Source: Pyrinomonadaceae bacterium
GTDB taxonomy: Bacteria > Acidobacteriota > Blastocatellia > Pyrinomonadales > Pyrinomonadaceae
Assembly: GCA_021228405.1 (NCBI GenBank)
Contig: JAJQRF010000002.1
Coordinates: 806,001-870,000 of the forward strand
Direction: 5' to 3'
DNA: 64,000 bases
In this document: in pieces, positions 9,237-51,507 of the stretch
How the letters are laid out: the number at the start of each line of letters is the position of its first letter
Numbering within the stretch: the first letter of the stretch is position 1
Translations under genes and position numbers: made by a program
Notes under the pieces: model-generated
Told to the model about the DNA's origin: nothing
Database searches by the model: none
The model's input: only the letters and a program-made list of their open reading frames with translations

Positions 9237-11168
9237 TCACGGCAATTCGATTGTAAAAACATATATGCCGCCAACATTTTCAAAATCGAGAGGACCTATT
9301 TTTTTCGGAGAGCCCTTGATTCTTAATTTTGCCTCATGCAGGTAATTTTCATATTGCTCAAGACTGACTTTATAATCACTCACATCACGATTATTCTCAT
9401 CTAACTTGGCATTCATCAAATTTATTTCCATATCGGCAAATTCGGGGGTTCCGCCCCTGCTGTTAACGGTTTCAATGATGTGTGTATGATATTCCCGCAA
9501 AGCCTTTGCGCGATCGTCCTTATCATTGCTGTCAAATTTCCGCAGGAAGCTGTCGCCAACAATAAAAAGTCCTCCTTTTTCAAGATTTTTCTCGACATTT
9601 TTGAGGTATTTAATCTTATCCTTTAATTTTATATGGTGATCTACAAAGGAAGAAAAGATATATTTATATTTTCCTTCGGGATTGACCTTCCGGGCATCCG
9701 CGTGTTCCAGTTTTATGTGGTCGTATTTAGAAAATCGGTATTTTGCTATGTTGTAGTATGCCCAATCAATCTCTAACGCCAAAACATCCACATTCGGTAC
9801 ATCGACCAGCCTTTCGGTAAAATTACCCGTGCCCGCGCCGAATTCTAAAATCCTGCATTTTTCCGTTTCATCGCCGCGATGTTCCTTAAATACTCGCATC
9901 ATTTCGTCGGTCATATCCTTATAATAAGGGTGCTTATCGGAATACTGATGATAGTCCCAAACGGAGGTATATATCGACATTTCGACAAATCTGCTCTGAA
10001 ATCGTTCAAAATCGCCAAATAATTCTTCCTTCAGATTGTTGAACGAGAGCGGACTATCTTCGGGCACTTCCAAAGGTGCTTCGATCAGTATCGAAGCACC
10101 TTTGATCTTTTCAAAGACAGTTTCATATTTTTGGACTCCTTTTACCGACATTGAATATTTGATCTTCTTTTGATTTTCCATTCGGTCGTAAAGCGCATAC
10201 AAACTGGAGTTTCCATTGTATAGAATACCTAAGTCTTTAGCTTCGTTCGGAACCAGCGCAGTCAGTGCCTGCATCGTAATTACCCTGACTTTATATAATC
10301 TGGAATGGTCGATAATCATTTCATAATGCCGACCGAAATCCGCTTCAGTATTAAAAACGAAAATTCGCTCGTCAGTTTCTTTCCTTGATAATCGAAGAAT
10401 TTCTCTGCCAATATCCTGAAGCCAGAACGTATCCTGCTGATCGATTATCGAAACCGCTTTGAGTTTCAGGCTATCGCCAAATTTATTTTTTAGTTTTACG
10501 AGATTATATGTCCACTGAATTGCCGGCGCGGAAAAGCTCTCTAGTTTTTTTCCGTCTTTGATCTCATCATTTAACTCTCTGATGGATTCGGTAATAATAA
10601 GTTTGAGAGAGTGGTTATCTTTTAACTGGCTGTTATATTTTAAGCCTTTTATTTCATCGAAAAGCGGTTCGGCTATATCGTGAATGTCCGCTTCCCACGC
10701 CAATTGATCTTTAGCCTTGTTATATTTCTCCAACCATTCTCCAAAGGCGAGATCAAGAATTTTGTCACGGGCTTCCGTTCCTACAATATCTTTCATAAGA
10801 GCGATCATCTGATTTTTATCTTCACCGCTGATTACATGAAAGTGCTTTAAGGGGATTTCATCTTTTGAATCAAGCAGTTTCTCTTTATCGCCCAGCAAAA
10901 CAAGCGTATATTCTCCGAGTTTTTTATGAATATATCCGGCTTCAAAGTTAAACCATATTTTTCGATGTGTTCCGGGCGTTACGAATCCTATGCAATAGTC
11001 GGCTTCTTCGATCTCTTCTATTATTTTGTCGAACCATTTACCGCGGATCAGATCACTGGATATAAAACATTCTATACCCGGATAATCGCCGAAGGTTTCC
11101 TTAAAAGCTTTGGCTAAATCCTCTCCGGTTTTACCCGACCAACCGATAAAAATTTTTTTCTCACTCAT
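9237..11168 (-). CDS. TIR domain - middle domain - class I methyltransferase fusion
   Basis: Protein of 643 residues with no membrane segment. Residues 1-130 are a TIR-like domain: beta-A KKIFIGWSG (4-12), SSDLIRGKWFDKII (37-50), IGFVTP (60-65) and WFNFEAG (72-78), whose E76 is the candidate catalytic glutamate of NAD-cleaving TIR enzymes. Residues about 185-365 form an alpha/beta region I do not recognise (RIFVFNTEADFGRHYEMI, 268-285); it has no HKD phospholipase motif. Residues about 435-560 carry a methyltransferase core with motif I ILEFGAGTGNF (440-450). An AGGAGGT ribosome site precedes the start. It is the third gene from the cassette's 3' end, after the membrane TIR-like gene. TIR domains in bacteria are often NADase effectors of anti-phage or stress systems; a methyltransferase fused behind one is unusual. 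Confidence 0.82.
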   Translation of the reverse strand: MSEKKIFIGWSGKTGEDLAKAFKETFGDYPGIECFISSDLIRGKWFDKIIEEIEEADYCIGFVTPGTHRKIWFNFEAGYIHKKLGEYTLVLLGDKEKLLDSKDEIPLKHFHVISGEDKNQMIALMKDIVGTEARDKILDLAFGEWLEKYNKAKDQLAWEADIHDIAEPLFDEIKGLKYNSQLKDNHSLKLIITESIRELNDEIKDGKKLESFSAPAIQWTYNLVKLKNKFGDSLKLKAVSIIDQQDTFWLQDIGREILRLSRKETDERIFVFNTEADFGRHYEMIIDHSRLYKVRVITMQALTALVPNEAKDLGILYNGNSSLYALYDRMENQKKIKYSMSVKGVQKYETVFEKIKGASILIEAPLEVPEDSPLSFNNLKEELFGDFERFQSRFVEMSIYTSVWDYHQYSDKHPYYKDMTDEMMRVFKEHRGDETEKCRILEFGAGTGNFTERLVDVPNVDVLALEIDWAYYNIAKYRFSKYDHIKLEHADARKVNPEGKYKYIFSSFVDHHIKLKDKIKYLKNVEKNLEKGGLFIVGDSFLRKFDSNDKDDRAKALREYHTHIIETVNSRGGTPEFADMEINLMNAKLDENNRDVSDYKVSLEQYENYLHEAKLRIKGSPKKIGPLDFENVGGIYVFTIELP

Positions 11169-11274
11169 TATGGGATTATCTTAACCTCCTGTAATTTTAT
11201 TTAATTTGTCTTCGCAATCATTAATTTAAAATGTCAATTATAATTTCGATCACCCTTTAAAATACCGGTCTCAG

Positions 11275-12465
11275 CTATTTTGAAAGCTGTCTGAAAGACA
11301 GGAAATTGCTGTGAGATATTACCCGCCGGGCATTCAGTTTCATATAAAAATATCTAAGATGAAGCGGAACGATTTGGAGAGGAAACAAGAAAAAGTTAAG
11401 CGACAATAATGTTGCGGCTCCGTATAAAATGCAATAAATAAAAGTTTTCACGCGGCTTAGATACAGACCGTGCCGCTTGAAATGCGGGCGGAGAGTTTCC
11501 CTTACAACGGTTGACGGCGACAGACAGAAGAAAAACTTTTTCCACTCGCTCGTTTCGATAAGACCCGGAGCCCAGTTTGCATCGAAAACCATAAAATTAG
11601 CTTTCCCGATATGCTCGGGAAGCTTGATTCCGACCTTTGCCTCAAATTTTTCCTTGAATTGCTCATAGTGAATTTTGCGGCTGTCCGCATTGAATAATTC
11701 CCAGAGAAAAAACGAGATGATTATTTTTGAAGGCGAATCTGTTTTTTTAGCCGCTTCCATTTCCCAGAGCAGAGATTCGGATGCGCCGGCGTGAATAACT
11801 ATCAATTGAGAAATCTCCATCAGATTTTGAACCGTGTCTTTCCACGTTTCGGTTTCTACATAGATTCTTTTCGCGCCGAGCTGAGATTCCGTATCTTCCG
11901 GTCTGCCGACCGCCAGCACGGGACCGATGTCCTGTAAAACGGAATTTAAATCCTCTTCGGGAGTTCGCTTGCTGATTTTTTGGATATTTTCCTCGGTGTC
12001 GGTCAGATACGAACGCAAATATAAAACGGGATCGCGGGAATCGTAACGCAAGTCGCGTTGGGTATTGATCCTGTATTTTTTGGCTGATCTGCGGGCATCG
12101 AAAAAAGCGGACAGCGTTAGACGGATTCCGCGGAACGCTACGATCGGAGTCAATAGCAAAACCGCAATCACGCCAACGGCTTGAATGATCGGGTATAAAA
12201 TAGTGTCTATAAAAAGAGCACTGAATATTGCGACCAGAATGGCAATGATAAAGAATGTCAGACATAGCGAGATAATTATGCCGACAGGCAACAGAACCCA
12301 GCTTAACAATTCGTAAATTATTCCCTCGAAAAGTCGGCTTGATGAGTTGCTGCGAACTTTGATGGGGATTTTCCGGAGGTTTTCATTTGCGAATTCCTCT
12401 TTCCCGAGAGTGAACTCTTTGAGATCGAATTCTAAAATTTTAGAGAAATAACTTTTTTTTTCCAT
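11275..12465 (-). CDS. Membrane protein with cytoplasmic TIR-like domain
   Basis: Protein of 396 residues. Two hydrophobic segments (about 55-82 and 90-111) and a third near 341-368 anchor it in the inner membrane. The soluble part (about 140-330) has DPVLYLRSY (145-153), GPVLAVGRPED (181-191), LGAKRIYV (196-203) and W208 ... LMEISQLIVIHAG ... LLWEMEAA (232-239). The order W, helix, beta strand, then W-E parallels the TIR domain of the neighbouring gene, with E235 in the position of its E76. I infer a divergent TIR-like nucleotide-binding or NAD-cleaving domain; this is not proven by recognisable family identity. A GGAGGA ribosome site precedes the ATG. First gene of the AT-rich cassette. Confidence 0.68.
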   Translation of the reverse strand: MEKKSYFSKILEFDLKEFTLGKEEFANENLRKIPIKVRSNSSSRLFEGIIYELLSWVLLPVGIIISLCLTFFIIAILVAIFSALFIDTILYPIIQAVGVIAVLLLTPIVAFRGIRLTLSAFFDARRSAKKYRINTQRDLRYDSRDPVLYLRSYLTDTEENIQKISKRTPEEDLNSVLQDIGPVLAVGRPEDTESQLGAKRIYVETETWKDTVQNLMEISQLIVIHAGASESLLWEMEAAKKTDSPSKIIISFFLWELFNADSRKIHYEQFKEKFEAKVGIKLPEHIGKANFMVFDANWAPGLIETSEWKKFFFCLSPSTVVRETLRPHFKRHGLYLSRVKTFIYCILYGAATLLSLNFFLFPLQIVPLHLRYFYMKLNARRVISHSNFLSFRQLSK

Positions 12466-37606: not shown

Positions 37607-38671
37607 TTACGCGGCAACGGGTGCGGTCGAACGTCGAATAACGATTGTCGGTTCGACACTGAGTTCGGGCGGAAATTCGTCGGGTTTGTTTTTGTTGAGT
37701 TTGTCCAAAAGCGTCTGCGCGGCAAGACTTCCCATTTCAAAAAGCGGTTGGCGAATCGTGGTCAAAGCCGGATTATGATAGGCGGCGGCGTAAATGTCGT
37801 CGAATCCCAGAACCGAAACATCCGTCGGAACGCGCAGACCTTTTTCTTCGAGCGCACGAATCGCGCCGATGGCGGAAACGTCGTTGAAAGCAAAAACCGC
37901 TGTAAATTTTTCGCCTCTTTCGAGCAGTTTTTTCATCGCCACATAACCGACTTCGGGCGACGGCTTATCGCCTTCGAGTTGAATGCAGAGATTTTCGGCA
38001 ATCGGGATGTTTCTTTTTCCGGCGGATTCGTGGATGGTTGCCGAGCGAACTTCGGTATCCGAACTGAAATGCTGTCCTTTGAGAACCGCGATCTTGCGAT
38101 GCCCGAGCTCGTAAAGATGCCCGATGCCGAGTTCCGCCGCGTGTTGATGATTCAGGATGATATTTGTCACGCCTTCGATCACGTCGTGTCCCGAAACCGT
38201 CACGACGGGCAAAGCCGGCTGAAAACGAATCGGCGAATCGACCGCGATCAAGCCTTCGACGCGTCTTTCAAGCAGCATTTGCGGGTGTTTTTTGAGCAGA
38301 TCGGTGCGGTGCAGATGGCTTGCGGTCAAATAAAAATAATCCTCTTTTGCGAGAACGGCTTCGACTCCATTTAAAACCATCGCCGAGTAACCGTCGCTGA
38401 GTTCGGGCACGATCACGCCGAGCGTATTTGTTTTCTGTACCCGCAAAGAACGCGCGACATAATTCGGACGATAATTTAATTGTTTCGCCGCACTGAAAAT
38501 TCTCTCTTTGGTTTCGACCGGGATCGAGCTTGCCGAAGGCGCATCGTTCAAAACCAGCGAAAGAGTGGTTGGCGACAAGCCGAGATGCTGTGCCAATTGC
38601 TTTAGACTGACCGCTTTTCTTTCACCGGAAGAATTTGTTTCTGTCGCAGAAATATCTTGCTTGCTCGGCAT
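37607..38671 (-). CDS. LacI-family transcriptional regulator
   Basis: DNA-binding sugar-responsive regulator of 354 residues. After a roughly 20-residue extension, the helix-turn-helix and hinge are SLKQLAQHLGLSPTTLSLVLN ... RPNYVARSLR. The rest is the periplasmic-binding-protein-like effector domain (TLGVIVPELSDGYSAMVL, FNDVSAIGAIRAL, DVSVLGFDDI). ATG 38671 is taken; TTG 38704 would add 11 residues. It is divergent from the TonB receptor gene, and tandem CG-centred half-palindromes typical of LacI operators lie between them, so it probably controls that receptor. The effector is probably a sugar; which is not evident. Confidence 0.92.
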   Translation of the reverse strand: MPSKQDISATETNSSGERKAVSLKQLAQHLGLSPTTLSLVLNDAPSASSIPVETKERIFSAAKQLNYRPNYVARSLRVQKTNTLGVIVPELSDGYSAMVLNGVEAVLAKEDYFYLTASHLHRTDLLKKHPQMLLERRVEGLIAVDSPIRFQPALPVVTVSGHDVIEGVTNIILNHQHAAELGIGHLYELGHRKIAVLKGQHFSSDTEVRSATIHESAGKRNIPIAENLCIQLEGDKPSPEVGYVAMKKLLERGEKFTAVFAFNDVSAIGAIRALEEKGLRVPTDVSVLGFDDIYAAAYHNPALTTIRQPLFEMGSLAAQTLLDKLNKNKPDEFPPELSVEPTIVIRRSTAPVAA

Positions 38672-38765: not shown

Positions 38766-38841
38766 AAAAGTCGAAATAATCATCCAAACTTCCCTGAAAA
38801 CTCTTGACAACAAAAAACATATATTGTAAAACCAATGTTAC

Positions 38842-38866
38842 TAAAACGATTTACTAAAACGATTTA
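38842..38866. promoter_or_regulatory. Tandem LacI-type operator-like sites
   Basis: TAAAACGATTTA occurs twice (38842-38853 and 38855-38866) in direct repeat, 13 bases apart. Each is a near palindrome around a central CG, the hallmark of LacI-family operators. They lie 33 bases past a TTGACA -35-like hexamer and 150 bases before the receptor ATG, a position that suits repression. The rest of the gap is AT-rich leader with a small GCGA-loop hairpin near 38901-38914. Confidence 0.65.
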
Positions 38867-39018
38867 CTTTAATAAATAATTAAATTAATCCCCTGAAAAG
38901 ATACCGCGAGGTATTTTGAAAGATTTCGGAGTTCTGTTAAACGGCTGAATACTGCCGGATGATTTCGTTATTTTTCGATGCGCAATACTAACTGTTAATC
39001 AAATTCTGGAGGACATTT

Positions 39019-42000
39019 ATGCGTCAAGCAACTTTCCATTTTAAACGCTTGATCTTGTGTTTTGTAATTACGATCTCTTTTTCGCTGATTGCAAACGCAC
39101 AATTTAAGGCGGCAATTCAGGGAAATGTAACGGATTCGGCGGGAGCGACAGTTCCTGCGGCAACTGTGACATTGACCAATAAAGAAACCGGACAAACACA
39201 GCAAACCGTTTCAAACGACGAGGGTTTTTATCGTTTTCCGGGTCTTGCTCCCGGTTTATATTCGATCACGACCGAAAAAGAGAGTTTTAAGAAGAAAACC
39301 ATCGAAGACGTTAAGGTCGATGCCGAAACGCTTCGCGGCGTTGACATCGCACTCGAAGCGGGCGTAATCAGTGAAACCGTGACCGTGCAAGCCGAAAATG
39401 TCGGTTTGGAAACCGAAGATGCCAACGTCAGGCGGATAATCTCGAACGCCGAGATTCTTGAACTTCCGCAGGTCGGACGCGATCCGTATGAACTGGCGCG
39501 TTTGTCGCCGGGCGTTTTCGGTGCCGGCGCAAGAAGTGCGAACGGTTCGTCCGCCAACTTGCCGAATACAAGCGGTCCGGGCGGCTCGAACAACGGAATT
39601 TTCTCGACCGAAAATCAGGTTCAGATTTCCGCCAACGGTCAGCGGCTTTCCGCCAACAATTTCCAGATCGACGGCACGAGCGTCAACAGCCAGACGTGGG
39701 GCGGTGCGGCGGTTATTACTCCGACACAGGAGGCAGTTAAAGAAGTTCAGGTAACTTCGAGCACCTATTCGGCGGAAGACGGCAGAAACAGCGGCGCACA
39801 GGTCAAGGTTGTAACGCAGAACGGAACGAATCAATTTCACGGAAGCGCGTTCTTCAAATATAACGATCCGGGTTGGAACGCCTTCAATAAAGGTTTTACG
39901 ATTCCGGGAACAACGCGCGGCGCGGCTTCGCAAAGAATCGAAAACAGAGATAAAACGTTCGGCGGAAGTCTGGGCGGACCGCTCTATCGCGACAGGTTGT
40001 TCTTCTTTTTTGCTTATGAAGGTTTGCGCAACAAGACGAACAATACTTACCAATCGTTTATCGAAACGCCGCAATTAAGAAGCCTGATCCGCAGTATTCG
40101 TCCGAACAGCATCGCGGCGAAAATTTTCGGCACGGCGGGAATCGAACCGCGTGTCGTGTCGATCTTACCGAGAACCTGCGGTGATTTCAGTTTCCCGATT
40201 TCCTGTCAAAACGTGAGCGGCGGTTTCGACATCGGTTCACCGTCAGGCGCGCAGGGCACATACGTTCCTTTCAGCGCACCGCTCGGCGGCGGCTTTGACG
40301 GAATTCCCGATCTGCAATACGCGTTGCTGGAATCTCCTGCCAGCTACAATGGAAACCAATATTTCACCCGTATCGATTATCAGGTAACGGATAACGACAA
40401 ACTGGCGTTTACGGGATTTTTCACGCCGATCGACATTCTGACTCCCGACAATGCGGGACAGAGCCGTTCGATGAACGATATTCAATCGAATCGTTTCAAC
40501 TGGGCGACCGGGATTATTTACGGACGCAACATTTCTGCGAGAATTTTCAACGAAGCACGATTCAACATTACAAAATGGTCGTTCGATGAAACGAAAACCA
40601 ATCCGAACGTAAATTTCGGCATTCCGCGTATCGAGATCGAAGGTTTATTACCGAACGGTGACCGCCTTCGTTTCGGCGCACCGCGCGGTGAAAACACACC
40701 CGCGATCATCGCCGAAACCCAACTCGATTTCCGCGATACTTTGTCTTATGTGATCGGAAATCACAGTTTGAAATTCGGTGCTGAATACCGGAGAGATTTG
40801 AACGACAACACGGGTACGGGCGGCGCACGTCCTCTGTATTCGTTCGTCAGACCCTGGAATTTTGCCAACGATACGCCGATCTTTGAAGCGATCAATGCCG
40901 ATTTCAACGGCAGACCGCAGGCAAACGGTTCCCCGTTTTCGAGCGGTGAATTGGCATTTTTCGCGCAGGACGATTGGAAAATTCTCCCGAATTTAACGCT
41001 TAATCTGGGCTTGCGCTGGTCGTATTTTCAACCGATCAAAGCCGACAGCCTGGGAAATCTGGTTTTCGGAACGGCAGGCTTTGCCAACGCGCGAGTCGTT
41101 ACGGACAAAACTCTGACGAAATCCGATTACAACAATTTCGGACCGCAGATCGGTTTTGCGTGGACACCCGAAAGATTTGAAAACAAATTGGTTATTCGCG
41201 GCGGAGCGGGAATCGGTTATGACCGTTTGCCGAACGCTTTGCTTGCTAATGCGCGTGCAAATCCGCCGAACGGTGCGAGATACGGAATCTGTTGCGGCGG
41301 CGCGGGCGCGGCAGGCGGTGAAGATTGGGCACCGCCGTTTGTCAACGGGCAAATTCTTTACGCGCTCGGCACCAGCAACAGTCCGTTGAGCTTTCCGGCG
41401 AACCCGGTTCTCGGTGGCGGACAAAACCCGAACACGGGCGGTCCAAACGTCGGACAGATCGAAATTTACGGAGCCGACCCGAACCTGAAGACAAGCGAAG
41501 TTTATCGTTATTCACTCGAAGGTCAATACGAATTGCCGTATAAACTTGTCGGAACGCTCGGCTATCAGGGCAGTAAGAGCCGTAATTTCGTTCGTATCGA
41601 ACCGCTTCATTTAACCCAACCCGCCACGAACCCGGCATTTAATCCGGTTTATTACGCGTTCGGCGATGTCAGCGGAGATTATAATGCGATGATCGCCCGC
41701 TTACAGCGTCGTTTTGCGAACGGATTCCAGTTTGATGTCAATTACCGCTTTGCCAAATCGCTCGATTCTTATTCTTACGAAGCACCTTGCGGCTGTACGA
41801 ACCAAACGTATCCGGTCGATCAATCGCAGGAATGGGGACCGTCGGATTTCGATGTCAGACATTTTACGACCGCTTCGTTGGTCTGGGATTTGCCGTTTTT
41901 CAGCAAACAAAAATCGTGGACAGGAAAATTGTTGGGCGGCTGGCAGATCAGCAGTATCTTTACCCAGCATTCGGGATTTCCGTGGACGGTCAAGGTCGAT

Positions 42001-42474
42001 CGCGGCATTCGCGGACCGAACGGAAACTTTTTCGGACCGATTCGCCCGATCGGAGTTTTGGGCGGCGAGCCGAGCAGTAACACGAACAGCAATTTCATCC
42101 GTGCGGGCGGTATTTTCCCGGGCGGTGCAGGTCAGTATTTTAACACTAATGTAAACGGCGATCCGCCGACCTATCAGGCAAATCCGCCGGGAATCGGAAG
42201 AAATACTTTCCGCAGTCCGAAATATAAAAACGTCGATATGACGCTGACGAAGCGTTTCGGTTTGCCGAATGCGGGAATCCTGGGAGAAAGTGCCGGATTG
42301 GATTTACGGTTCAATTTCTTCAATATCTTCAACATTCAAAATCTGGCTCCGCTTCAGGCGGGCAGCGGTAATACGTTTGCCTTTCGTTTCGGTTCGATCA
42401 ATCCTTCGTTCGGTGAAGCCGAAGGAGTTTTGGCAGGTCGCGTGGTTGAGTTTCAGGCAAGATTCAGCTTCTAA
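39019..42474 (+). CDS. TonB-dependent receptor with carboxypeptidase-regulatory domain
   Basis: Outer-membrane receptor of 1,151 residues, the very large type abundant in Acidobacteriota. Residues 1-29 are a signal peptide (SLIANAQF). Residues about 30-115 are a carboxypeptidase-regulatory-like domain (AAIQGNVTDSAGATVPAATV). A plug domain follows (INSTWGG-like region, VKEVQVTSSTYSAEDGRNSG), then a long beta-barrel with alternating aromatic strands and a terminal FQARFSF ending in Phe, typical of outer-membrane insertion. There is no clear TonB box. It probably imports or senses a glycan: LacI-type sites precede it and glycosidase and ABC genes follow. Substrate unknown. Confidence 0.92.
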   Translation: MRQATFHFKRLILCFVITISFSLIANAQFKAAIQGNVTDSAGATVPAATVTLTNKETGQTQQTVSNDEGFYRFPGLAPGLYSITTEKESFKKKTIEDVKVDAETLRGVDIALEAGVISETVTVQAENVGLETEDANVRRIISNAEILELPQVGRDPYELARLSPGVFGAGARSANGSSANLPNTSGPGGSNNGIFSTENQVQISANGQRLSANNFQIDGTSVNSQTWGGAAVITPTQEAVKEVQVTSSTYSAEDGRNSGAQVKVVTQNGTNQFHGSAFFKYNDPGWNAFNKGFTIPGTTRGAASQRIENRDKTFGGSLGGPLYRDRLFFFFAYEGLRNKTNNTYQSFIETPQLRSLIRSIRPNSIAAKIFGTAGIEPRVVSILPRTCGDFSFPISCQNVSGGFDIGSPSGAQGTYVPFSAPLGGGFDGIPDLQYALLESPASYNGNQYFTRIDYQVTDNDKLAFTGFFTPIDILTPDNAGQSRSMNDIQSNRFNWATGIIYGRNISARIFNEARFNITKWSFDETKTNPNVNFGIPRIEIEGLLPNGDRLRFGAPRGENTPAIIAETQLDFRDTLSYVIGNHSLKFGAEYRRDLNDNTGTGGARPLYSFVRPWNFANDTPIFEAINADFNGRPQANGSPFSSGELAFFAQDDWKILPNLTLNLGLRWSYFQPIKADSLGNLVFGTAGFANARVVTDKTLTKSDYNNFGPQIGFAWTPERFENKLVIRGGAGIGYDRLPNALLANARANPPNGARYGICCGGAGAAGGEDWAPPFVNGQILYALGTSNSPLSFPANPVLGGGQNPNTGGPNVGQIEIYGADPNLKTSEVYRYSLEGQYELPYKLVGTLGYQGSKSRNFVRIEPLHLTQPATNPAFNPVYYAFGDVSGDYNAMIARLQRRFANGFQFDVNYRFAKSLDSYSYEAPCGCTNQTYPVDQSQEWGPSDFDVRHFTTASLVWDLPFFSKQKSWTGKLLGGWQISSIFTQHSGFPWTVKVDRGIRGPNGNFFGPIRPIGVLGGEPSSNTNSNFIRAGGIFPGGAGQYFNTNVNGDPPTYQANPPGIGRNTFRSPKYKNVDMTLTKRFGLPNAGILGESAGLDLRFNFFNIFNIQNLAPLQAGSGNTFAFRFGSINPSFGEAEGVLAGRVVEFQARFSF

Positions 42475-42488
42475 AACCTGAACGGCTT

Positions 42489-42521
42489 CGAGGTGAGAAG
42501 ATTTCTGATTTTCTCACCTCG
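42489..42521 (+). terminator. Rho-independent terminator of the TonB receptor gene
   Basis: A perfect 11-bp stem, CGAGGTGAGAA (42489-42499) with its reverse (42511-42521), an 11-base loop, then ATTTTTAG. It is 15 bases past the stop codon. Confidence 0.9.
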
Positions 42522-42581
42522 ATTTTTAGATCAAAGATTCAATCAACACCGAATGAATCTTTGATGTGAAAATTTATCGGG

Positions 42582-43907
42582 TTATTTTTTCGGATTACTC
42601 AGTTCTTTGAATATCGCCAATTCGCGGTCGGCTTCGGTTTTTTGTTTCAGATTTGAATAGGATAAAAACATTTGATAATGAACGTCCGCGTTTTGCGGAT
42701 TGAGCGCGGCGGCTTGTTTAAGATAGCCGAGCGCGTCACCGTATCTCTTGGTTTTGACCAGCAATCTGCCGAGATCGTTGAGCGCATTAAAGTTGTTTTT
42801 GCTCAGGGAGATCGCGGTTCGTAAAAGCTTTTCGGCTTCGGCAAACTCGCCGCGGTCGAGCTTGATCGCGCCGAGCAAAGTATGTGCGTCGGCATCGTTC
42901 GGTTTCAACGCCAGAGTTTTTTGCAGAGCCGTAACAGCCGCTTGCGAATCGCCCAAACCGCGTTGGACGACCGCCAGAAAATATTGAATTTCGGAGATTT
43001 TCGGAAACTTCGCCGAAGCATCTTCAAATATTTTCAGAGCTTGTCTGAATTCGCCGAGAAAAATATACATTCCGCCCAGACGAATATGATAGACGGCTTG
43101 CGAAGCATCGTATTTCAGTGCCGTTTCGTAATATTTTTTAGCTTCCGCGTAATTTTGATATTTGGCAAAAATCTCGCCCAACATAAAATTTGAGGGCGCG
43201 TGATCGGGTTTAAGCGCGAGCGATTTTTCAAAATAATCTCCCGCAAGCTCGTCGTTTTTTTTGTCGAAGGCGATCATTCCGAGCCAATAAAATGTTTCGG
43301 CGGAATTTGGCGAAAGTTCGGCGGCATTTATGAAATATGCTTCGGCTTCGTCGGCTTTTCCGGTTTGATAAAGCGCGAGTCCGAGATTGTAAACAATGTC
43401 GAATGAATCGGGCTGAAATTCGGTTGCTTTTTTTAGATAAGGAACGGCTTTTTGATAGTTTCCGTTTGAGCTGTATAAAATTCCTATGTTTATCGTGGCT
43501 TGCGGGTGATCGGGTCTGAGTTGCAGAACGGCTTCAAAAGTTTTGATCGCTTCGTCATTTCGTTTGTTTTTGGCGAGCAGAACGCCGAGATTGGCAAGCG
43601 GCGAAACGGCTTTCGGATTTGTTTTTAGGGCTTGGCGATATTCCCTCTCGGCTTCGGCAAAATTACCTTTTTGGTCGAGGACGATTCCTAAAAGATTGTG
43701 CGCGTCCGCATTTGAAGGCGCGGTTTTGAGAACGTTGCGAAGAATTTTTTCGGCTTCGTCAAATTGATTGTTTTGCAGATTTGCGGCGGCTTCGCGGAGC
43801 TTTTCGGCGATCTTGTCGGGTTGCGCGAAAACATTGAGTGTAAACAGGTTAGAAATGAACAAAAATATAAAAACCGACGTGATAAAACTGAAAATTTTCT
43901 TATTCAT
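42582..43907 (-). CDS. Secreted multi-TPR protein
   Basis: Exported protein of 441 residues. Residues about 1-28 are a signal peptide (FLFISNLFTLNVFAQ). The rest is about eleven TPR units with canonical positions, for example ADAHNLLGIVLDQKGNFAEAE, so it is a periplasmic or surface scaffold. ATG 43907 is chosen because the signal peptide starts there and AAAGGA lies 2-7 bases upstream; an earlier in-frame start would add 48 residues without a leader. The 5' end overlaps the divergent glycosidase gene by 53 bases. It is convergent with the TonB receptor gene. Confidence 0.86.
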   Translation of the reverse strand: MNKKIFSFITSVFIFLFISNLFTLNVFAQPDKIAEKLREAAANLQNNQFDEAEKILRNVLKTAPSNADAHNLLGIVLDQKGNFAEAEREYRQALKTNPKAVSPLANLGVLLAKNKRNDEAIKTFEAVLQLRPDHPQATINIGILYSSNGNYQKAVPYLKKATEFQPDSFDIVYNLGLALYQTGKADEAEAYFINAAELSPNSAETFYWLGMIAFDKKNDELAGDYFEKSLALKPDHAPSNFMLGEIFAKYQNYAEAKKYYETALKYDASQAVYHIRLGGMYIFLGEFRQALKIFEDASAKFPKISEIQYFLAVVQRGLGDSQAAVTALQKTLALKPNDADAHTLLGAIKLDRGEFAEAEKLLRTAISLSKNNFNALNDLGRLLVKTKRYGDALGYLKQAAALNPQNADVHYQMFLSYSNLKQKTEADRELAIFKELSNPKK

Positions 43908-46900
43908 AGTCCTTTTCTCGATCTCGACGATTCCCGCGTTCGCGCAAAAAGATGCGGTCGTCGAAAGAAAGATAAACGCACTTTTGGCACGAATGACTTT
44001 AGCCGAAAAGCTCGGGCAATTGCAACAGCTTGACGGCGAAGCAAACGGCAAATTTCGTCCCGAACATCTCGAAATGGCGCGGAAAGGCTTGCTCGGTTCG
44101 ACGCTGAACGTGCGCGGTGCAAAGATGACGAACGAATTACAGCGCGCCGCGCTCGAATCGCGTTTGAAAATCCCGATTCTTTTCGGTTTCGACGTGATTC
44201 ACGGTTATCGCACGATCTTTCCCGTTCCGCTCGGCGAATCGGCAAGCTGGGATTTGGTTTCGATCGAGAAAACGGCGGCAATCGCGGCGGCTGAATCGAA
44301 GGCGGCAGGCGTTCACTGGACGTTTGCGCCGATGGTCGACATCGCGCGCGACCCGCGTTGGGGACGTGTCATCGAAGGCGCGGGCGAAGATACTTTTCTC
44401 GGTTCAAAGATCGCTTTCGCACGGGTTCGCGGTTTTCAGGGAAACGATTACAGCGCGAACAATAAAATTTTGGCGACCGCGAAACATTGGGTAGGCTACG
44501 GCGCGGCGGAAGCCGGACGCGATTACAACACGACGAATCTGACCGAACGCTCTTTGCGGGAAATCTATTTTCCTCCGTTCAAAGCCGCGCTCGATGCCGG
44601 AGTCGATTCATTTATGACTTCGTTCAACGATCTCGACGGCGTTCCGGCAACGGCGAATCCGTTCGTTCTGAAAAAAGTCCTGCGCGACGAATGGAAATTC
44701 GACGGCTTGGTTGTCAGCGATTACACGGCGGTGATGGAACTGATGTTTCACGGTCTGGCAAAAGATGAAGCGGACGCGGCGCAGTATGCCCTAAATGCGG
44801 GAACCGATATGGAAATGGTTTCGCGTTTTTACAACAAACACGGCGAACAGCTTGTCAAAGACAAAAAACTCTCGATGGCGACGATCGATGAAGCCGTCAG
44901 ACGCATTTTGCGCATCAAATTCCGCCTCGGACTTTTCGACAATCCTTTTGCCGATGAAAAATTGGAACAGGCGGAGGTTTTTAAGAAAGCGAACCGCGAT
45001 TATGCAAAGCTTTCCGCCGAAAAATCGTTCGTTTTACTGAAAAACGAGCGGCAGACTTTACCGATCAATAAAAATACGAAAGAAATCGCCGTCATCGGTG
45101 CGTTGGCAAACAGCAAAGCCGATATGCACGCAAACTGGACGGGCGACGGGCGACCCGAAGATGCGGTCACGGTTTTGGAAGGTTTAAAGCAGAAATTTCC
45201 GAACACGAAAATCCGTTTTGAAGCGGGATGCGACGCGAAATGCGAATCGGACGAAGGCTTTAAAAAGGCGGTCGATGCCGTTAAGGATTCAGATTTTACG
45301 ATTCTCGTCGTCGGCGAATCGGGTGATATGTCGGCGGAAGCGGCTTCGCGTTCAAACATCGATCTGCCGGGCAAACAACTCGAACTCGTCAAACAAATCC
45401 ACGCGACGGGAAAACCGTATGCGGTCGTTTTGATGAACGGCAGACCTTTGACGATCAACTGGTTAGCGGAAAATTCTCCGGCGATCCTGGAAACGTGGTT
45501 TGCGGGAACGATGGCTGGACCGGCGATCGTCGATACGCTTTTCGGCGATGCTAATCCGGGCGGAAAGCTTCCGATCACTTTTCCGCGTTCGGTCGGACAG
45601 ATTCCGCTTTATTACAACCACAAAAACACGGGTCGTCCTTTCAAGGAAACCGAAAAATACACGTCGAAATATCTCGATCTGCCGAATTCGCCGCTCTATC
45701 CGTTCGGCTACGGTTTGAGCTACACGGAGTTTCGTCTGAGCAATCTGCAACTGGACAAAACGCAGATTTTGCCGAACGGAAACGTCAAAGTCAGCGTCGA
45801 AGTAGAAAATACCGGCAAGCGAACGGGCGATGAAGTCGTTCAGCTTTACATTCAGGATGTGGCGGCAAGCGTGACGCGCCCGGTCAAGGAATTGCGGGGC
45901 TTCAAACGGGTAACTTTGAAAGCGGGCGAAAAGCAGAAAGTCGAATTTACATTAACGCCGAAGGAACTTTCGTTTCTAGACCGCAATATGAAGGAAATCG
46001 TCGAGCCGGGCGAATTTCAGGTTTTTGTCGGAAACAGTTCTGAAAACGGTTTGCAGACGAGCTTTGAAGTCGTCACGAAACTCACGCCGGTTTCGGTTTA
46101 TAATCCCGATCCGAGCGAAAAGCCCGACCCTGCGCCGACCGCCGCCATCCCGACGGCGCAGATCAGCGCGGAAGATGACGCTTTTCTCGAAGACTTGCAA
46201 AAAAAAACATTTCAATTTTTTGGGGAACATTCAAATCCGAATACGGGATTAACGCTCGACCGCGCTAAAACCGACGGAACGCCGCCGCCGCCGAACGACA
46301 GCCATTACAAAATTGCGAGCATCGCCTCGACGGGTTTTGCTTTGAGCGGTTTATGTATCGCATCGGAACGCGGTTGGCTGACAACCGAACAAGCAAAAGA
46401 ACGAGCGCGAAAAACGCTCGATTTTTTTGCCAATCGCGCCGTTCATAAAAACGGTTGGTTTTATCATTGGATGGATGCCGAAACGGGCGAACGACGCTGG
46501 CAAAGCGAAATTTCGTCGATCGACACGGCTCTGTTGATGGGCGGCGTTTTAACTGCAAAGCAATGCTTTTCCGACGACAAGGAAATCGTCGCAAATGCCG
46601 ACAAAATCTATCGGAGAATCGATTTTCCGTGGATGCTCAACGGGCATCCGTATCTGCTTTCGCACGGCTGGCGACCCGAAAACGGTTTTATTCCCAATCG
46701 CTGGCAGGATTACAGCGAAGATAAGATTTTATACTTGCTTGCCATCGGTTCGCCGACCAAACCGATCTCGCCGAAATCCTGGTATGCGTGGCAACGCGGC
46801 TACATCGAATATGGCGATTACCGCTATTTAGCCGCCGTTTCGCCGCTTTTTATTCATCAGTTTTCGCACGCTTGGGTCGATTTCAGAAACAGGCGCGAAC

Positions 46901-47376
46901 GCCGTCCGCCGTATGTCGATTATTTTGAAAATTCGGTCAAAGCGACACGCGCACAAAGGCAGTTTTTTATCGATGTTCTGAGCAAGGAGTTTCCGAAATA
47001 CTCCGAAAATATTTGGGGTTTGACGGCTTCCGACGCAAAGAACGGCTATATCGCTTGGGGAGCACCGCCGCGCTCGCCCGAAACGGATGGAACGGTCGTA
47101 CCTTGCGCGTCTGCGGGTTCGCTGATGTTTACGCCCGACATCGCGCTTTCGGCTCTCAAGGAAATGAAAAATCGTTTCGGCAAAGACATTTACGGACGTT
47201 ACGGTTTCACGGATGCGTTCAATCCGCATAACGGTTGGGTAAATCCCGATGTGATCGGCATTGATCTCGGCATTACACTTTTGAGCGCGGAAAATCTGCG
47301 AAGCGGGAAAAACTGGTTTTGGTTCATGCAAAACGACGAAATCAGGATCGCGATGAAAAGAATTTCGCTTTTTTAG
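43855..47376 (+). CDS. GH3 beta-glucosidase fused to GH144-like glucanase domain
   Basis: Secreted two-enzyme protein of 1,173 residues. After a signal peptide (about 1-31), residues about 35-640 are a GH3 glycosidase with the catalytic aspartate D289 in LVVSDYTA and the second domain around GESGDMS; about 655-755 are a fibronectin III-like domain. Residues about 773-1165 match the glycoamylase-like fold (PF10091, GH144), whose characterised members are endo-beta-1,2-glucanases: FFGEHSNPNTGLTLDR, GFYHWMD-like WFYHWMDAETGERRW and GFTDAFNPHNGWVNPD-like end. Such a fusion would cut a beta-1,2-glucan and release glucose. A GTG at 43879 is an alternative start that keeps the leader. Domain calls are firm for GH3 and good for GH144. 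Confidence 0.86.
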   Translation: MNKNIKTDVIKLKIFLFIVLFSISTIPAFAQKDAVVERKINALLARMTLAEKLGQLQQLDGEANGKFRPEHLEMARKGLLGSTLNVRGAKMTNELQRAALESRLKIPILFGFDVIHGYRTIFPVPLGESASWDLVSIEKTAAIAAAESKAAGVHWTFAPMVDIARDPRWGRVIEGAGEDTFLGSKIAFARVRGFQGNDYSANNKILATAKHWVGYGAAEAGRDYNTTNLTERSLREIYFPPFKAALDAGVDSFMTSFNDLDGVPATANPFVLKKVLRDEWKFDGLVVSDYTAVMELMFHGLAKDEADAAQYALNAGTDMEMVSRFYNKHGEQLVKDKKLSMATIDEAVRRILRIKFRLGLFDNPFADEKLEQAEVFKKANRDYAKLSAEKSFVLLKNERQTLPINKNTKEIAVIGALANSKADMHANWTGDGRPEDAVTVLEGLKQKFPNTKIRFEAGCDAKCESDEGFKKAVDAVKDSDFTILVVGESGDMSAEAASRSNIDLPGKQLELVKQIHATGKPYAVVLMNGRPLTINWLAENSPAILETWFAGTMAGPAIVDTLFGDANPGGKLPITFPRSVGQIPLYYNHKNTGRPFKETEKYTSKYLDLPNSPLYPFGYGLSYTEFRLSNLQLDKTQILPNGNVKVSVEVENTGKRTGDEVVQLYIQDVAASVTRPVKELRGFKRVTLKAGEKQKVEFTLTPKELSFLDRNMKEIVEPGEFQVFVGNSSENGLQTSFEVVTKLTPVSVYNPDPSEKPDPAPTAAIPTAQISAEDDAFLEDLQKKTFQFFGEHSNPNTGLTLDRAKTDGTPPPPNDSHYKIASIASTGFALSGLCIASERGWLTTEQAKERARKTLDFFANRAVHKNGWFYHWMDAETGERRWQSEISSIDTALLMGGVLTAKQCFSDDKEIVANADKIYRRIDFPWMLNGHPYLLSHGWRPENGFIPNRWQDYSEDKILYLLAIGSPTKPISPKSWYAWQRGYIEYGDYRYLAAVSPLFIHQFSHAWVDFRNRRERRPPYVDYFENSVKATRAQRQFFIDVLSKEFPKYSENIWGLTASDAKNGYIAWGAPPRSPETDGTVVPCASAGSLMFTPDIALSALKEMKNRFGKDIYGRYGFTDAFNPHNGWVNPDVIGIDLGITLLSAENLRSGKNWFWFMQNDEIRIAMKRISLF

Positions 47377-47609: not shown

Positions 47610-49133
47610 ATGTCATTGCTCGAAATGAAACAAATCACGAAGGAATTTCCGGGTGTGAAGGCTTTGGACGGAGTGACGTTCGATCTTTCGGCAGGCGAAT
47701 TTCATTCGCTGGTCGGCGAAAACGGCGCGGGAAAATCGACGCTGATGAAAACTCTCTCGGGAGTATATCCGTTCGGCAGTTACGGCGGCGATATTGTCGT
47801 TGACGGGCAAGTTCAGCAATTCAAAACCGTTCGTGACGCTGAAAATGCGGGAATCGCGATCATCTTTCAGGAACTTTCGCTGGTCAAGGAACTGACCGTC
47901 GGGGAAAATATTTTTCTCGGTAAAGAGCCGGCGCGTTTCGGCATTATCAACTGGGCGGAACTATATCAAAAAGCTTCAAAGTTACTGAAAGATTTACATT
48001 TAGCGATTGACCCGCGCACGCCTGTCGGAAATCTCGGTATTGGACAACAACAGCTTGTCGAGATCGCTAAAGCCCTGTCGCAGAAAGCAAAAATTCTCGT
48101 TTTGGACGAACCGACCGCCGCTTTGACCGAATCGGAAGTCGAAACGCTTTTCAAGATTTTGACCGATTTGAAAGCGCGCGGTGTCGGGATGATCTATATT
48201 TCGCACAAACTCGATGAAGTTTTTGCGATGTCGGACAGGATCACGGTTTTGCGCGACGGCAAAACTGTCGGAACAAGCAATGCCAGCGATCTGACGAAGG
48301 ATAAAGTCATTTCTCTGATGGTCGGGCGCGAAGTCGGCGACATTTTCCCGAAAACCGCCCACGAATTCGGCGAAACGGTTTTGGAAATTAAAGATTTGAA
48401 CGCTTACGATTTCGACAATCCGAATAAAAAACTCGTTAAGGACGTTTCTTTTTCGGTCAAAAAAGGCGAGGTTGTCGGAATTGCGGGTTTAATGGGCGCG
48501 GGACGGAGCGAGCTTCTAATGTCGATCTTCGGTGCGTGGCAGGGAAAATCTTCGGGCGAAGTTTTTGTCGAAGGTAAAAAGGTCGAGATAAGTTCGCCGG
48601 CGGACGCGATCAAAAACGGCATCGGGTTTGTGACCGAGGATCGCAAACGTTTCGGTCTGATTCTCGAACAGACGATCATGGACAATTCGACGCTTGCCGG
48701 ATTGACGCAGATCGTCGGAAATTTTCTGACCAACCGCGCCAAGGAAACGATTGCGGCAAAACAGGTTATGTCTTCTTTGCACGTCAAGGCAAATTCGCCG
48801 CTGACGGTTGCCGGAACGCTTTCGGGCGGAAATCAGCAAAAGGTCGTGCTCGGAAAATGGCTCCTGACAAATCCGAAAGTTTTGTTTTTGGACGAACCGA
48901 CACGCGGAATCGATGTCGGCGCAAAACAGGAAATCTACGCCGAGATCAATAAATTGGCAAAGACGGGTTTGGCGATCGTGATGGTTTCATCCGAATTGCC
49001 CGAAGTTTTGGGTTTATCCGACAGAATTCTGGTTTTACACGAAGGAAAATTGACGGGCGAATTTACCAAAACCGAAGCCACGCCCGAAAAAGTGATGGTC
49101 GCCGCAACGGGTGAATCAAAAGTATTGGTTTAA
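47610..49133 (+). CDS. xylG: Sugar ABC transporter ATP-binding protein, XylG-like
   Basis: Double ATPase of 507 residues that powers monosaccharide import at the inner membrane. Walker A is GENGAGKST (36-44), signature IGQQQLVEIAKAL and Walker B LVLDEPTAA in the first half; the second half has a degenerate A site (GLMGAGRSE), signature SGGNQQKVVLGKW and LFLDEPTRG, the layout of RbsA/XylG/MglA. The early YPFGSYGGDI stretch is XylG-like. The permease gene starts 4 bases after the stop. The 233-base gap upstream is AT-rich and probably holds the promoter of xylGHF. Confidence 0.88.
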   Translation: MSLLEMKQITKEFPGVKALDGVTFDLSAGEFHSLVGENGAGKSTLMKTLSGVYPFGSYGGDIVVDGQVQQFKTVRDAENAGIAIIFQELSLVKELTVGENIFLGKEPARFGIINWAELYQKASKLLKDLHLAIDPRTPVGNLGIGQQQLVEIAKALSQKAKILVLDEPTAALTESEVETLFKILTDLKARGVGMIYISHKLDEVFAMSDRITVLRDGKTVGTSNASDLTKDKVISLMVGREVGDIFPKTAHEFGETVLEIKDLNAYDFDNPNKKLVKDVSFSVKKGEVVGIAGLMGAGRSELLMSIFGAWQGKSSGEVFVEGKKVEISSPADAIKNGIGFVTEDRKRFGLILEQTIMDNSTLAGLTQIVGNFLTNRAKETIAAKQVMSSLHVKANSPLTVAGTLSGGNQQKVVLGKWLLTNPKVLFLDEPTRGIDVGAKQEIYAEINKLAKTGLAIVMVSSELPEVLGLSDRILVLHEGKLTGEFTKTEATPEKVMVAATGESKVLV

Positions 49134-49137
49134 TAAA

Positions 49138-50286
49138 ATGAGTGAAACAGTAGAAAAATCGGGTTTCAAGATAGAAACTTCTTCTTTGCGCGCTTACACG
49201 ATGCTGGGCGCGATGATTTTGATTTGGCTTTTCTTTTATTGGCAGACCGACGGCATATTTCTAACGCCGCGCAATCTTTCCAATCTGATGTTGCAAATGT
49301 CCGTGACGGGCATTTTGGCGGTCGGGATGTTGATGGTGATCCTGACCGGAAACATCGATCTTTCGATTGGTTCGGTTTTGGGATTAGCCGGCGGAGTTGC
49401 CGCAATTTTGCTGACAAATCAGGGCTACGGACTGCTTCCGTCGTTTGCGGCGGCGATTGCGGTGGCGGTCGTGATCGGCATTTTGCACGGATTTTTGACG
49501 GCATATTTCAATATTCCGGCATTTATCGTGACTTTGGGCGGACTTCTGGCGTGGCGCGGCGCGATCAAAGGGATTTCGCAATCTGAAACGATCCCGATTT
49601 CAGACCCGACCTTTAAAGTCATCGGGCAGGGAAATATCACGCCTGCTTCGGGTTGGGTTATTGCGATCATTGCGATCGTCTTTGTTTTGTTTCTGGCATA
49701 CCGTCACGCCCAGGCGCAGAAAACCTACGGGCTCGGCGAGGCGAACATCGGCGGCGAGATGCTCAAAACCATTTTGCCGATAGGTGTCATCATCGGATTT
49801 ATTTACGTGATGAACTCGTCAAACGGCGTTCCGCTTCCGGTTTTGATATTTTTGGTCGTGGCGTTGATCGGAACGTTTATTACTAATTCGACGACATTCG
49901 GGCGTTATCTCTACGCGATCGGCGGAAATTCGGATGCGGCAAGGCTTTCGGGCATCGACACGAAAGTTAATATTTTGAAGGTTTACGCTCTTTTAGGTTT
50001 ACTGATCGGCGTGGCGGCGATTATCTTTACGGCGCGACAGGGAAGTGCCGCGCCCGATGCCGGAGTTTTGAAGGAGCTGGACGCGATTGCGGCTTGCGTG
50101 ATCGGCGGGGCAAGCTTGATGGGCGGACGCGGAACGATCTTCGGAGCGTGCCTCGGTGCGCTGATTATGGCGAGTCTGGACAACGGAATGTCGCTTTTGA
50201 ACGTGCGCGATTTTATGCAGGAATTAATTAAAGGTTCGATTTTGGTCGCGGCGGTCGGGCTTGATATGATTGGTAAGAAATCTTAG
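49138..50286 (+). CDS. xylH: Sugar ABC transporter permease, XylH-like
   Basis: Inner-membrane permease of 382 residues of the ribose/xylose class. About ten hydrophobic segments are visible, with the family motif GNIDLSIGSVLGLAGG (near 70-85) and IGGNSDAARLSGIDTK (near 262-277). ATG 49138 follows the xylG stop by 4 bases; an upstream GTG at 49111 lies within xylG and is less likely. Length matches XylH (393 in E. coli). Substrate class firm, exact sugar open. Confidence 0.9.
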   Translation: MSETVEKSGFKIETSSLRAYTMLGAMILIWLFFYWQTDGIFLTPRNLSNLMLQMSVTGILAVGMLMVILTGNIDLSIGSVLGLAGGVAAILLTNQGYGLLPSFAAAIAVAVVIGILHGFLTAYFNIPAFIVTLGGLLAWRGAIKGISQSETIPISDPTFKVIGQGNITPASGWVIAIIAIVFVLFLAYRHAQAQKTYGLGEANIGGEMLKTILPIGVIIGFIYVMNSSNGVPLPVLIFLVVALIGTFITNSTTFGRYLYAIGGNSDAARLSGIDTKVNILKVYALLGLLIGVAAIIFTARQGSAAPDAGVLKELDAIAACVIGGASLMGGRGTIFGACLGALIMASLDNGMSLLNVRDFMQELIKGSILVAAVGLDMIGKKS

Positions 50287-50301
50287 AATTTTTAGAAATA
50301 T

Positions 50302-50389
50302 TGCCCACGAAACAAACGAAAATCACGAAAGAAAAACACAATAAAATCAGTAAAGTCTTTTTTCGTTTCTTTCGTGTGTTTCGCGGGCA
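50302..50389. repeat. Imperfect inverted repeat between xylH and xylF
   Basis: The arms begin TGCCCACGAAACA and end with the near-reverse TGTTTCGCGGGCA. CACGAAA words fill both. It is related in wording to 25277-25349. Its place inside an operon suggests an attenuator or mRNA stabiliser that raises the binding protein relative to the permease. Confidence 0.7.
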
Positions 50390-50409
50390 AAAAACAGGAG
50401 AATAATTTA

Positions 50410-51507
50410 ATGCGATTAAAAGTTTTAGTCTTTTTACTTTTCGCGGTTTTCATTTCGGCGTGTATTCAGGCACCGCAGAACAATATGACGAGCAGTAATG
50501 CTCCGCAAGGTAATAAACCTGCCGATCCGGGCAAAAAAGTAAAGATCGGTTTTGCTATGGCAACCGTGAAGGAAGAACGCTGGCAGCGTGACCGCGTGGC
50601 TTTTGAAGATCATTGCAAGAAAATGAACGTGGAATGCGTTATCACGGTCGCCGACAATAAAGCCGACAAACAGGCAAACGACGTTGAAAACCTTCTCACA
50701 CAGGGAATCGATGTGCTCGTGATCGCCCCGCAGGATGCAACACAAGCGGCTTCGATGGTCGAAAAAGCGAAAGCACAGAATATTCCCGTGATTTCTTACG
50801 ACCGTCTGATCAATTCCGACAAACTCGACCTTTATATTTCACATCAGGTTCCGGTCATCGGTCGGAAGATTGCCGAATACGCGCTGAAAAATGCACCTGA
50901 AGGAAATTATGTGATGGTTTACGGCGCGGGAACGGACAACAACGCCGTCATTATGAAAAAGGAACAGCTTGCCGTTCTACAGCCTGCAATCGACAGCGGA
51001 AAGATCAAGATCGTTGCCGATAACTTTATCACCGACTGGAAGCCCGAAGAAGCCCTGAAAATGGCGGAAAACGCGCTCACGCAAAACGGTGACAACATCA
51101 AAGCCTTCGTCGTTTCAAATGACGGAATGGCGGGCGGCGTGATTGCCGCGCTCGAAAAACGCGGACTCGCGGGCAAAATTCTCGTGACCGGACAAGACGC
51201 ACAAAAGGATGCACTGCAAAGGATTGCCGAAGGAAAACAAACGATGACCGTTTATAAACCGATCATTCCACTGGCGAGCGGTGCCGTCGAAGCGGCGATC
51301 AAACTGGCGAAAAAGGAAACGCTGGCAGATGCCAAACCGTTTACGACCAAACAGGGCGATAAGGATTTAACCGTCCCGTCGATTTTGCTGGAAGTTACGG
51401 TCGTTGACAAGGACAATCTGCTGACGACCGTTATCAAAGACGGCTACGTTACTTTTGAAGACGTTTACGCCAACGTTCCGGCGGACAAACGCCCGGCAAA
51501 ACCGTAA
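50410..51507 (+). CDS. xylF: Sugar-binding lipoprotein, XylF-like
   Basis: Solute-binding protein of 365 residues anchored by lipid. The leader ends in a lipobox FISAC (Cys near 18), followed by an Asn/Pro/Lys linker. The type 1 periplasmic binding fold follows, with KIGFAMATVKEERWQRDR, PVISYDRLINSD and VSNDGMAGGVIAALE, all in the XylF pattern. AGGAG lies 11 bases before the ATG. It comes last, after xylG and xylH, unlike the E. coli order F-G-H. The ligand is probably D-xylose or another monosaccharide such as glucose. Confidence 0.9.
   Translation: MRLKVLVFLLFAVFISACIQAPQNNMTSSNAPQGNKPADPGKKVKIGFAMATVKEERWQRDRVAFEDHCKKMNVECVITVADNKADKQANDVENLLTQGIDVLVIAPQDATQAASMVEKAKAQNIPVISYDRLINSDKLDLYISHQVPVIGRKIAEYALKNAPEGNYVMVYGAGTDNNAVIMKKEQLAVLQPAIDSGKIKIVADNFITDWKPEEALKMAENALTQNGDNIKAFVVSNDGMAGGVIAALEKRGLAGKILVTGQDAQKDALQRIAEGKQTMTVYKPIIPLASGAVEAAIKLAKKETLADAKPFTTKQGDKDLTVPSILLEVTVVDKDNLLTTVIKDGYVTFEDVYANVPADKRPAKP

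Follow-up and report, generated by a model that had tools for sequence, protein, structure and literature searches.

The glycoside hydrolase families GH192, GH193 and GH194 were created in 2025 alongside GH144, GH162 and GH189, and the hydrolases of this clan that have so far been tested are specific for beta-1,2-glucan (PMC12102758). XcSGL of Xanthomonas campestris (XCC2207, PDB 8XUL) consists of one catalytic domain and a disordered C-terminal tail, without a GH3 part (PMC12102758). BDI_3064 of Parabacteroides distasonis (PDB 5Z06) is a multidomain GH144 protein with a large N-terminal extension, which is exo-acting and releases sophorose from non-reducing ends (PMC8861115; PMC11842490). In our comparison, its N-terminal region gave no match to GH3.

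On the GH3 side, a stand-alone beta-glucosidase of Bacteroides thetaiotaomicron (PDB 5XXL-5XXO) has been solved, also with sophorose and sophorotriose (5XXN, 5XXO); we take it to be the beta-glucosidase of the beta-1,2-glucanase gene cluster of this organism. The origin of a B. thetaiotaomicron beta-glucosidase from such a cluster has been reported (PMC8861115). Lin1840 of Listeria innocua (PDB 4ZO6 and related entries), a GH3 enzyme for sophorose, is likewise unfused and has a phosphorylase rather than a GH144 enzyme as its partner. Its residues Arg572 and Tyr583 hold sophorose in subsite +1, the arginine is common to the wider BglX-like clade, and the enzyme also cleaves laminaribiose (PMC4757417). 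GH3 together with GH144 has been found in metagenomic PULs (PMC6550366), and Bacteroidota loci of the type TonB receptor-SusD-BglX-glucoamylase (e.g. on the Bacteroides finegoldii plasmid NZ_OY725948) carry the genes for receptor, GH3 and GH144 in this order on one strand. The partnership of both enzymes is already known from neighbouring genes; in our literature search of open-access papers, we found no mention of a GH3-GH144 fusion.

Here we describe such a fusion in a window of 64,000 nucleotides (the whole stretch of DNA analysed) from a Pyrinomonadaceae bacterium, whose genome of 5.7 Mb is about 96% complete and in which the window occupies G000:C7:806001-870000.

Results

The fused gene is a single intact, stop-free open reading frame of 1173 codons that extends from the ATG at 43855 to position 47376 on the plus strand of the window. 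The encoded protein starts with a signal peptide identified by eye (residues 1-31, ending in AFA-Q; 43855..43947), as do, by similar starts, the fused orthologues with complete N-termini; a complete BglX-type GH3 enzyme, a Pro/Ala-rich linker of ~30 residues and a complete GH144 domain follow. Pfam resolves the GH3 part into the N-terminal domain PF00933 (residues 48-354; 43996..44916; 2.6e-69), the C-terminal domain PF01915 (residues 393-623; 45031..45723; 4.6e-56) and the Fn3-like domain PF14310 (residues 660-729; 45832..46041; 9.8e-28). The linker comprises residues 736-765 (46060..46149), and the GH144 domain residues 766-1170 (46150..47364), all on the plus strand. The Pfam match to PF10091 ('Glycoamylase') covers only residues 949-1160 of the latter (1.6e-63); the alignment to GH144 structures reaches beyond it, from residue ~763 to 1170. 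The original prediction of GH3 and GH144 enzymes on one secreted polypeptide is thus borne out by the reading frame, Pfam and profile matches, structure and catalytic residues, and the GH144 boundaries it proposed (773-1165) agree with the structure alignment to within a few residues. What is new is the domain architecture, built from known families; the chemistry is not.

The GH3 half aligns over its full length with BglX-type enzymes, unites the three Pfam domains of the BglX type, and scores 796 bits with the NCBIfam BglX model NF011678, whose cut-off is 666. In structural alignments, identity amounted to 45% with JMB19063 from compost, 44% with the B. thetaiotaomicron GH3 enzyme, 43% with Pseudomonas aeruginosa BglX and 40% with Lin1840. 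The nucleophile Asp289 (44719-44721, plus strand) and the acid/base Glu495 (45337-45339, plus strand) align with those of JMB19063 and the B. thetaiotaomicron enzyme and are conserved in Lin1840 as well. In subsite +1, Arg594 (45634-45636, plus strand) is equivalent to Arg572 of Lin1840 and R587 of JMB19063, and Tyr602 (45658-45660, plus strand) to Tyr583 of Lin1840. Hydrolysis of sophorose or longer beta-1,2-glucooligosaccharides is the activity predicted for this half; as the arginine occurs clade-wide and Lin1840 accepts laminaribiose, Arg594 backs beta-1,2 specificity without proving it. In BglX-type GH3 dimers, a loop of the partner subunit completes each active site. Since the partner subunit contributes the subsite +1 residues in Lin1840, a dimer with two GH144 domains is the probable form of the fused protein.

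For the C-terminal half, XcSGL is the best sequence match (241 bits singly). A profile of 44 homologues gave 329 bits for XcSGL, 217 for CpSGL and 185 for BDI_3064 among GH144 structures and 216-223 bits for Bacteroides 'putative glucoamylases', as opposed to 62 bits for the sister family GH194, 38 for GH189 and 14 for GH192; GH162 was absent from the profile matches at E up to 1. The AlphaFold2 model of the domain (pLDDT 94.9, pTM 0.94) folds into a single (alpha/alpha)6-barrel, as in CpSGL and XcSGL, and superimposes on seven GH144 entries with Z scores of 49.9-52.1 over 384-393 residues (rmsd 1.7-2.1), compared with Z scores of 46.0 for GH189, 39.3 for GH194, 36.8 for GH192 and 30.1 for GH162. 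The superposition on XcSGL, the nearest characterised GH144 enzyme with only about 40% identity, covered 388 residues with a Z score of 50.9, an rmsd of 1.7 and 40% identity. We considered whether XCC2207 itself might be a GH192-194 member and rejected this, as it is classed as GH144 (PMC12102758) and the profile scores concur.

The general acid Glu955 (46717-46719, plus strand) lies opposite E239 of XcSGL (Q in the crystallised mutant), and Asp890 (46522-46524, plus strand), the candidate general base, occupies the position of E142 of CpSGL (residue roles according to PMC12102758). The clan aromatics are represented by Phe999 and Tyr1065, equivalent to F286 and Y367 of XcSGL, which thus shares acid, candidate base and clan residues with the fused protein. 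All four residues are invariant across the alignment of 44 GH144 homologues, which was matched by hand to the structure alignments. Profile scores, structural scores and residues, with GH193 not represented among the chains compared, therefore place the domain inside GH144, as had been anticipated, and speak against a position outside it; inverting endo-hydrolysis of beta-1,2-glucan is its predicted activity.

Endo action is not guaranteed, given that an exo-acting GH144 homologue exists in BDI_3064, whose GH144 domain matches our model with a Z score of 49.9. By analogy, the GH3 part might block part of the cleft as an N-terminal partner, and the GH144 half would then act exolytically and pass sophorose to the GH3 half. 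We consider this improbable: most homologues in relatives are single-domain secreted GH144 proteins, the linker is long and variable, and XcSGL is closest by sequence, the SGLs of that study being described as incapable of exo action (PMC12102758). A specificity altered in these Acidobacteriota toward another beta-glucoside, such as a substituted or sulfated glucan, would be conceivable in view of sulfatases in some marine GH144 loci (PMC6499787), of the laminaribiose cleavage by the BglX-like Lin1840 (PMC4757417) and of the fact that the papers searched contain no characterised acidobacterial GH144; yet every clan residue tested is invariant and the tested clan hydrolases act on beta-1,2-glucan only (PMC12102758), so that we regard a different substrate as unlikely.

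Fused genes and split neighbours

The survey covered three overlapping sets, with 119 genomes for the family, 162 for the class and a sample of 396 for the phylum. With reading frames called for each, GH3 and GH144 reside on one chain in 16 genomes of three Pyrinomonadaceae genera: besides the genus to which the window belongs, one sister genus contributes thirteen species and a second one two. In a 17th genome (G104, L116:8440-8640), GH3 and GH144 lie in different frames just past a run of nine A; its linker resembles that of its two fused sisters, and the case represents either a fused gene with a frameshift (real or a slippage site) or a sequencing error. The homologue of G116 is interrupted by a contig end.

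In most other genomes with a close GH144 homologue, the two genes are adjacent on one strand with GH3 first. Their spacing usually ranges from a slight overlap to about 350 bp, they often share a frame, and the GH144 protein here has a signal-peptide-like start of its own. Exceptions are G007, where the order is reversed, G011 and G035, where the genes diverge, and G056, G026 and G133, where sequence intervenes. Outside the Acidobacteriota, Bacteroides and Rhodobacter plasmid records also hold separate adjacent genes. The earlier expectation that the two enzymes are usually encoded by separate neighbouring genes therefore stands for most carriers outside the fused clade. When genome contigs were scanned with six peptide patterns, matches were mostly acidobacterial. 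A dozen further genomes had appeared to carry fusions by open-frame lengths, but reading-frame calls gave two open frames in each genome, often in phase and separated by a stop, and they were not counted; likewise, the long GH144 frames of G334 and G212 (955-1135 aa) were not accepted as other fusions, their upstream part resembling a spurious GC-rich frame. Among the plasmid and phage records examined that contain both domains, the genes are separate where annotated, and the reading frames are otherwise of separate size. The record MT835889.1 ('Bacteriophage sp.', human faeces, 15.8 kb) has adjoining matches to GH3 and GH144 at 9691-11619, with 33% identity; a fragment of a bacterial genome is the more probable source here, rather than a phage.

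In many relatives a mere 3-350 bp separates the two genes, often in one frame, which could raise the suspicion that assembly or annotation had joined two genes artificially. This explanation can practically be dismissed, as it is refuted by the single reading frame in 16 genomes of three genera, their similar linkers and the lack of a second signal peptide; recurrence as single frames in 15 further genomes means that the fusion arose neither by chance nor by misassembly.

Origin of the fusion and the linker

In the fused proteins, the second signal peptide is replaced by a linker rich in Pro and Ala, about 25-40 residues long. The fusion would have originated when a GH3 gene and a GH144 gene, adjacent and in the same orientation, lost the intergenic stop and the second signal peptide. 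The GH144 trees allow a single clade made up of the fused set and G104 (AU p 0.50), whereas the GH3 tree strongly rejects it (p < 1e-50). G111 and G135 (L103, L106) have GH3 halves that cluster with the split GH3 gene of G133 (L117) and with those of G100 and G103, away from the main fused group, in which their GH144 halves do fall. This suggests either repeated fusion or one fused gene that later swapped its GH3 half by recombination.

In the pairs compared, identity was 69-82% for GH3 domains and 70-77% for GH144 domains, as opposed to about 40-54% for the linker relative to that of the window, and dN was 0.13-0.25 against saturated dS for both domains where computable. Low dN in both domains combined with a variable linker indicates that both enzymes are under selection and that the tether is loose. 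The full-length model reached a pTM of only 0.63, despite the confidently modelled GH144 domain (0.94 alone), which suggests that the relative placement of the domains is poorly defined. These features would be in line with a mere joint synthesis of two enzymes that work independently, either because the linker is cut after export or because the domains make no contact, with co-expression and one signal peptide as the only gains. The split forms, which hold both genes adjacent in the same cluster, point the same way; the steady linker length among fused orthologues fits this picture less well, without being direct evidence against it. We regard such independence as a serious contender, albeit one with somewhat less than even chances. 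In the opposite scenario the tether would change catalysis, in that two tethered GH144 domains feed the dimeric BglX-type GH3 directly or the cutting pattern of GH144 is altered. This appears rather unlikely to us; if it applied, glucose would be formed without a free pool of sophorooligosaccharides.

Gene neighbourhood and LacI-type operator

Pfam and NCBIfam searches revealed a LacI-family regulator (37607..38671, minus strand) upstream of an Oar-like TonB-dependent receptor with CarboxypepD_reg and OMP_b-brl_4 domains (Pfam; 39019..42474, plus strand). A secreted TPR protein (reading-frame call and Pfam; 42582..43907, minus strand) is encoded divergently from the fused gene. Downstream of the fused gene, the plus strand encodes a monosaccharide ABC transporter (whole set 47610..51507; Pfam and NCBIfam) composed of a XylG-like ATPase (47610-49133), a permease (49111-50286) and a XylF/ChvE-like binding lipoprotein (50374-51507); models for xylose or multiple monosaccharides give the highest scores for its components, with two of the three below the cut-offs. 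A homologous TonB-dependent receptor is situated just upstream on the same strand in 39 of the 44 related loci whose upstream sequence extends over 3 kb or more. No SusD was found among the Pfam-scanned genes between 37.6 and 51.5 kb, and hence no SusC/SusD pair, nor was there any Rfam match in 36.0-52.5 kb. The Bacteroidota loci thus differ in having SusD and separate GH3 and GH144 genes, and the acidobacterial locus, unlike these, in its LacI regulator, Oar-like receptor and ABC transporter. Taken as a whole, the locus looks like a glucan-uptake regulon.

A strong terminator-like hairpin of 16 pairs is found at 42488-42522, between the converging TonB-receptor and TPR genes. As hairpin and TPR gene separate the receptor from the fused gene, co-transcription of the two is unlikely in the source genome. 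The fused gene and the TPR gene overlap by 53 bp at their 5' ends (43855-43907; ATG at 43855 on the plus and at 43907 on the minus strand), such that the two signal-peptide regions are encoded by opposite strands of shared DNA; AAAAGGA precedes the ATG of the TPR gene. In G109, too, an overlap was obtained by longest-frame call.

Comparison of 12 LacI/receptor gaps uncovered a common palindrome around ACTAAAACGATTTAGT with the shape of a LacI operator, its core TAAAACGATTTA being present in 10 of the 12. In the window, gap comparison and pattern matching locate two overlapping predicted LacI-type operators, ACTAAAACGATTTACT, in the LacI/TonB-receptor intergenic region (38840..38868, plus strand), both of which match the degenerate pattern without mismatch. 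Elsewhere in the 5.7 Mb genome, mismatch-free matches occur at two sites only. A copy on C10 lies inside a sigma-54 activator gene and is probably due to chance. The perfect palindrome GTAAATCGATTTAC (G000:C7:171648-171661; L181:8649-8662) closely precedes the gene of a ROK-family regulator, itself located behind a GH2-symporter-GH3 cluster; this copy may belong to a different regulator. A related 14-mer, CTAAAACGATTTAG, is found once each in 7 of 41 sister-genus genomes, all seven of which carry the fused gene; four of these sites share a contig with the fused gene, which they precede by a few kb, and the other three are close to contig ends elsewhere. In the source genome, the region directly in front of the fused gene itself contains no operator. 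These patterns support the notion that the divergently encoded LacI protein regulates the TonB-dependent receptor via the predicted operator.

Discussion

From the observed architecture and its recurrence, the family membership and catalytic residues, the neighbourhood and the operator, we propose a one-chain route from beta-1,2-glucan to glucose within a LacI/TonB/ABC locus, to which we assign a probability of about 0.78. The TonB-dependent receptor would carry beta-1,2-glucan or its oligosaccharides across the outer membrane. In the predicted compartment beyond it, the GH144 half would make internal cuts with inversion to yield short beta-1,2-glucooligosaccharides, from whose non-reducing ends the GH3 half, as a retaining BglX-type beta-glucosidase, would release glucose. 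Monosaccharide uptake would be accomplished by the XylFGH-like ABC transporter, glucose being its putative sugar, and the LacI regulator would control the locus through the tandem operator. The presumed benefit of fusion is that one export event would deliver both activities in equal amounts. The original suggestion that the two enzymes together could degrade beta-1,2-glucan completely agrees with all sequence and structure tests performed.

As to the source of the glucan, OpgG/MdoG was not found in the about 96% complete genome, and PF10091 occurs in a single gene, the fused one; with no second PF10091 gene, there is no evident cyclic glucan synthase. The lack of OpgG and the lone PF10091 gene fit scavenging of beta-1,2-glucans from other bacteria. 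Both cyclic and linear glucans are substrates of CpSGL. The source genome has only a marginal GH94 match, which fits hydrolysis rather than phosphorolysis.

The fusion is a real yet modest rearrangement of known parts. It nevertheless offers a natural one-protein candidate route from beta-1,2-glucan to glucose that is handy for testing the benefit of an endo/exo fusion, with unfused sisters bearing the same two domains as ready controls. Beyond the fusion itself, LacI operator, TonB receptor, GH3, GH144 and sugar ABC transporter together define a candidate beta-1,2-glucan utilisation locus over the Blastocatellia, a soil group with poorly known carbon sources.
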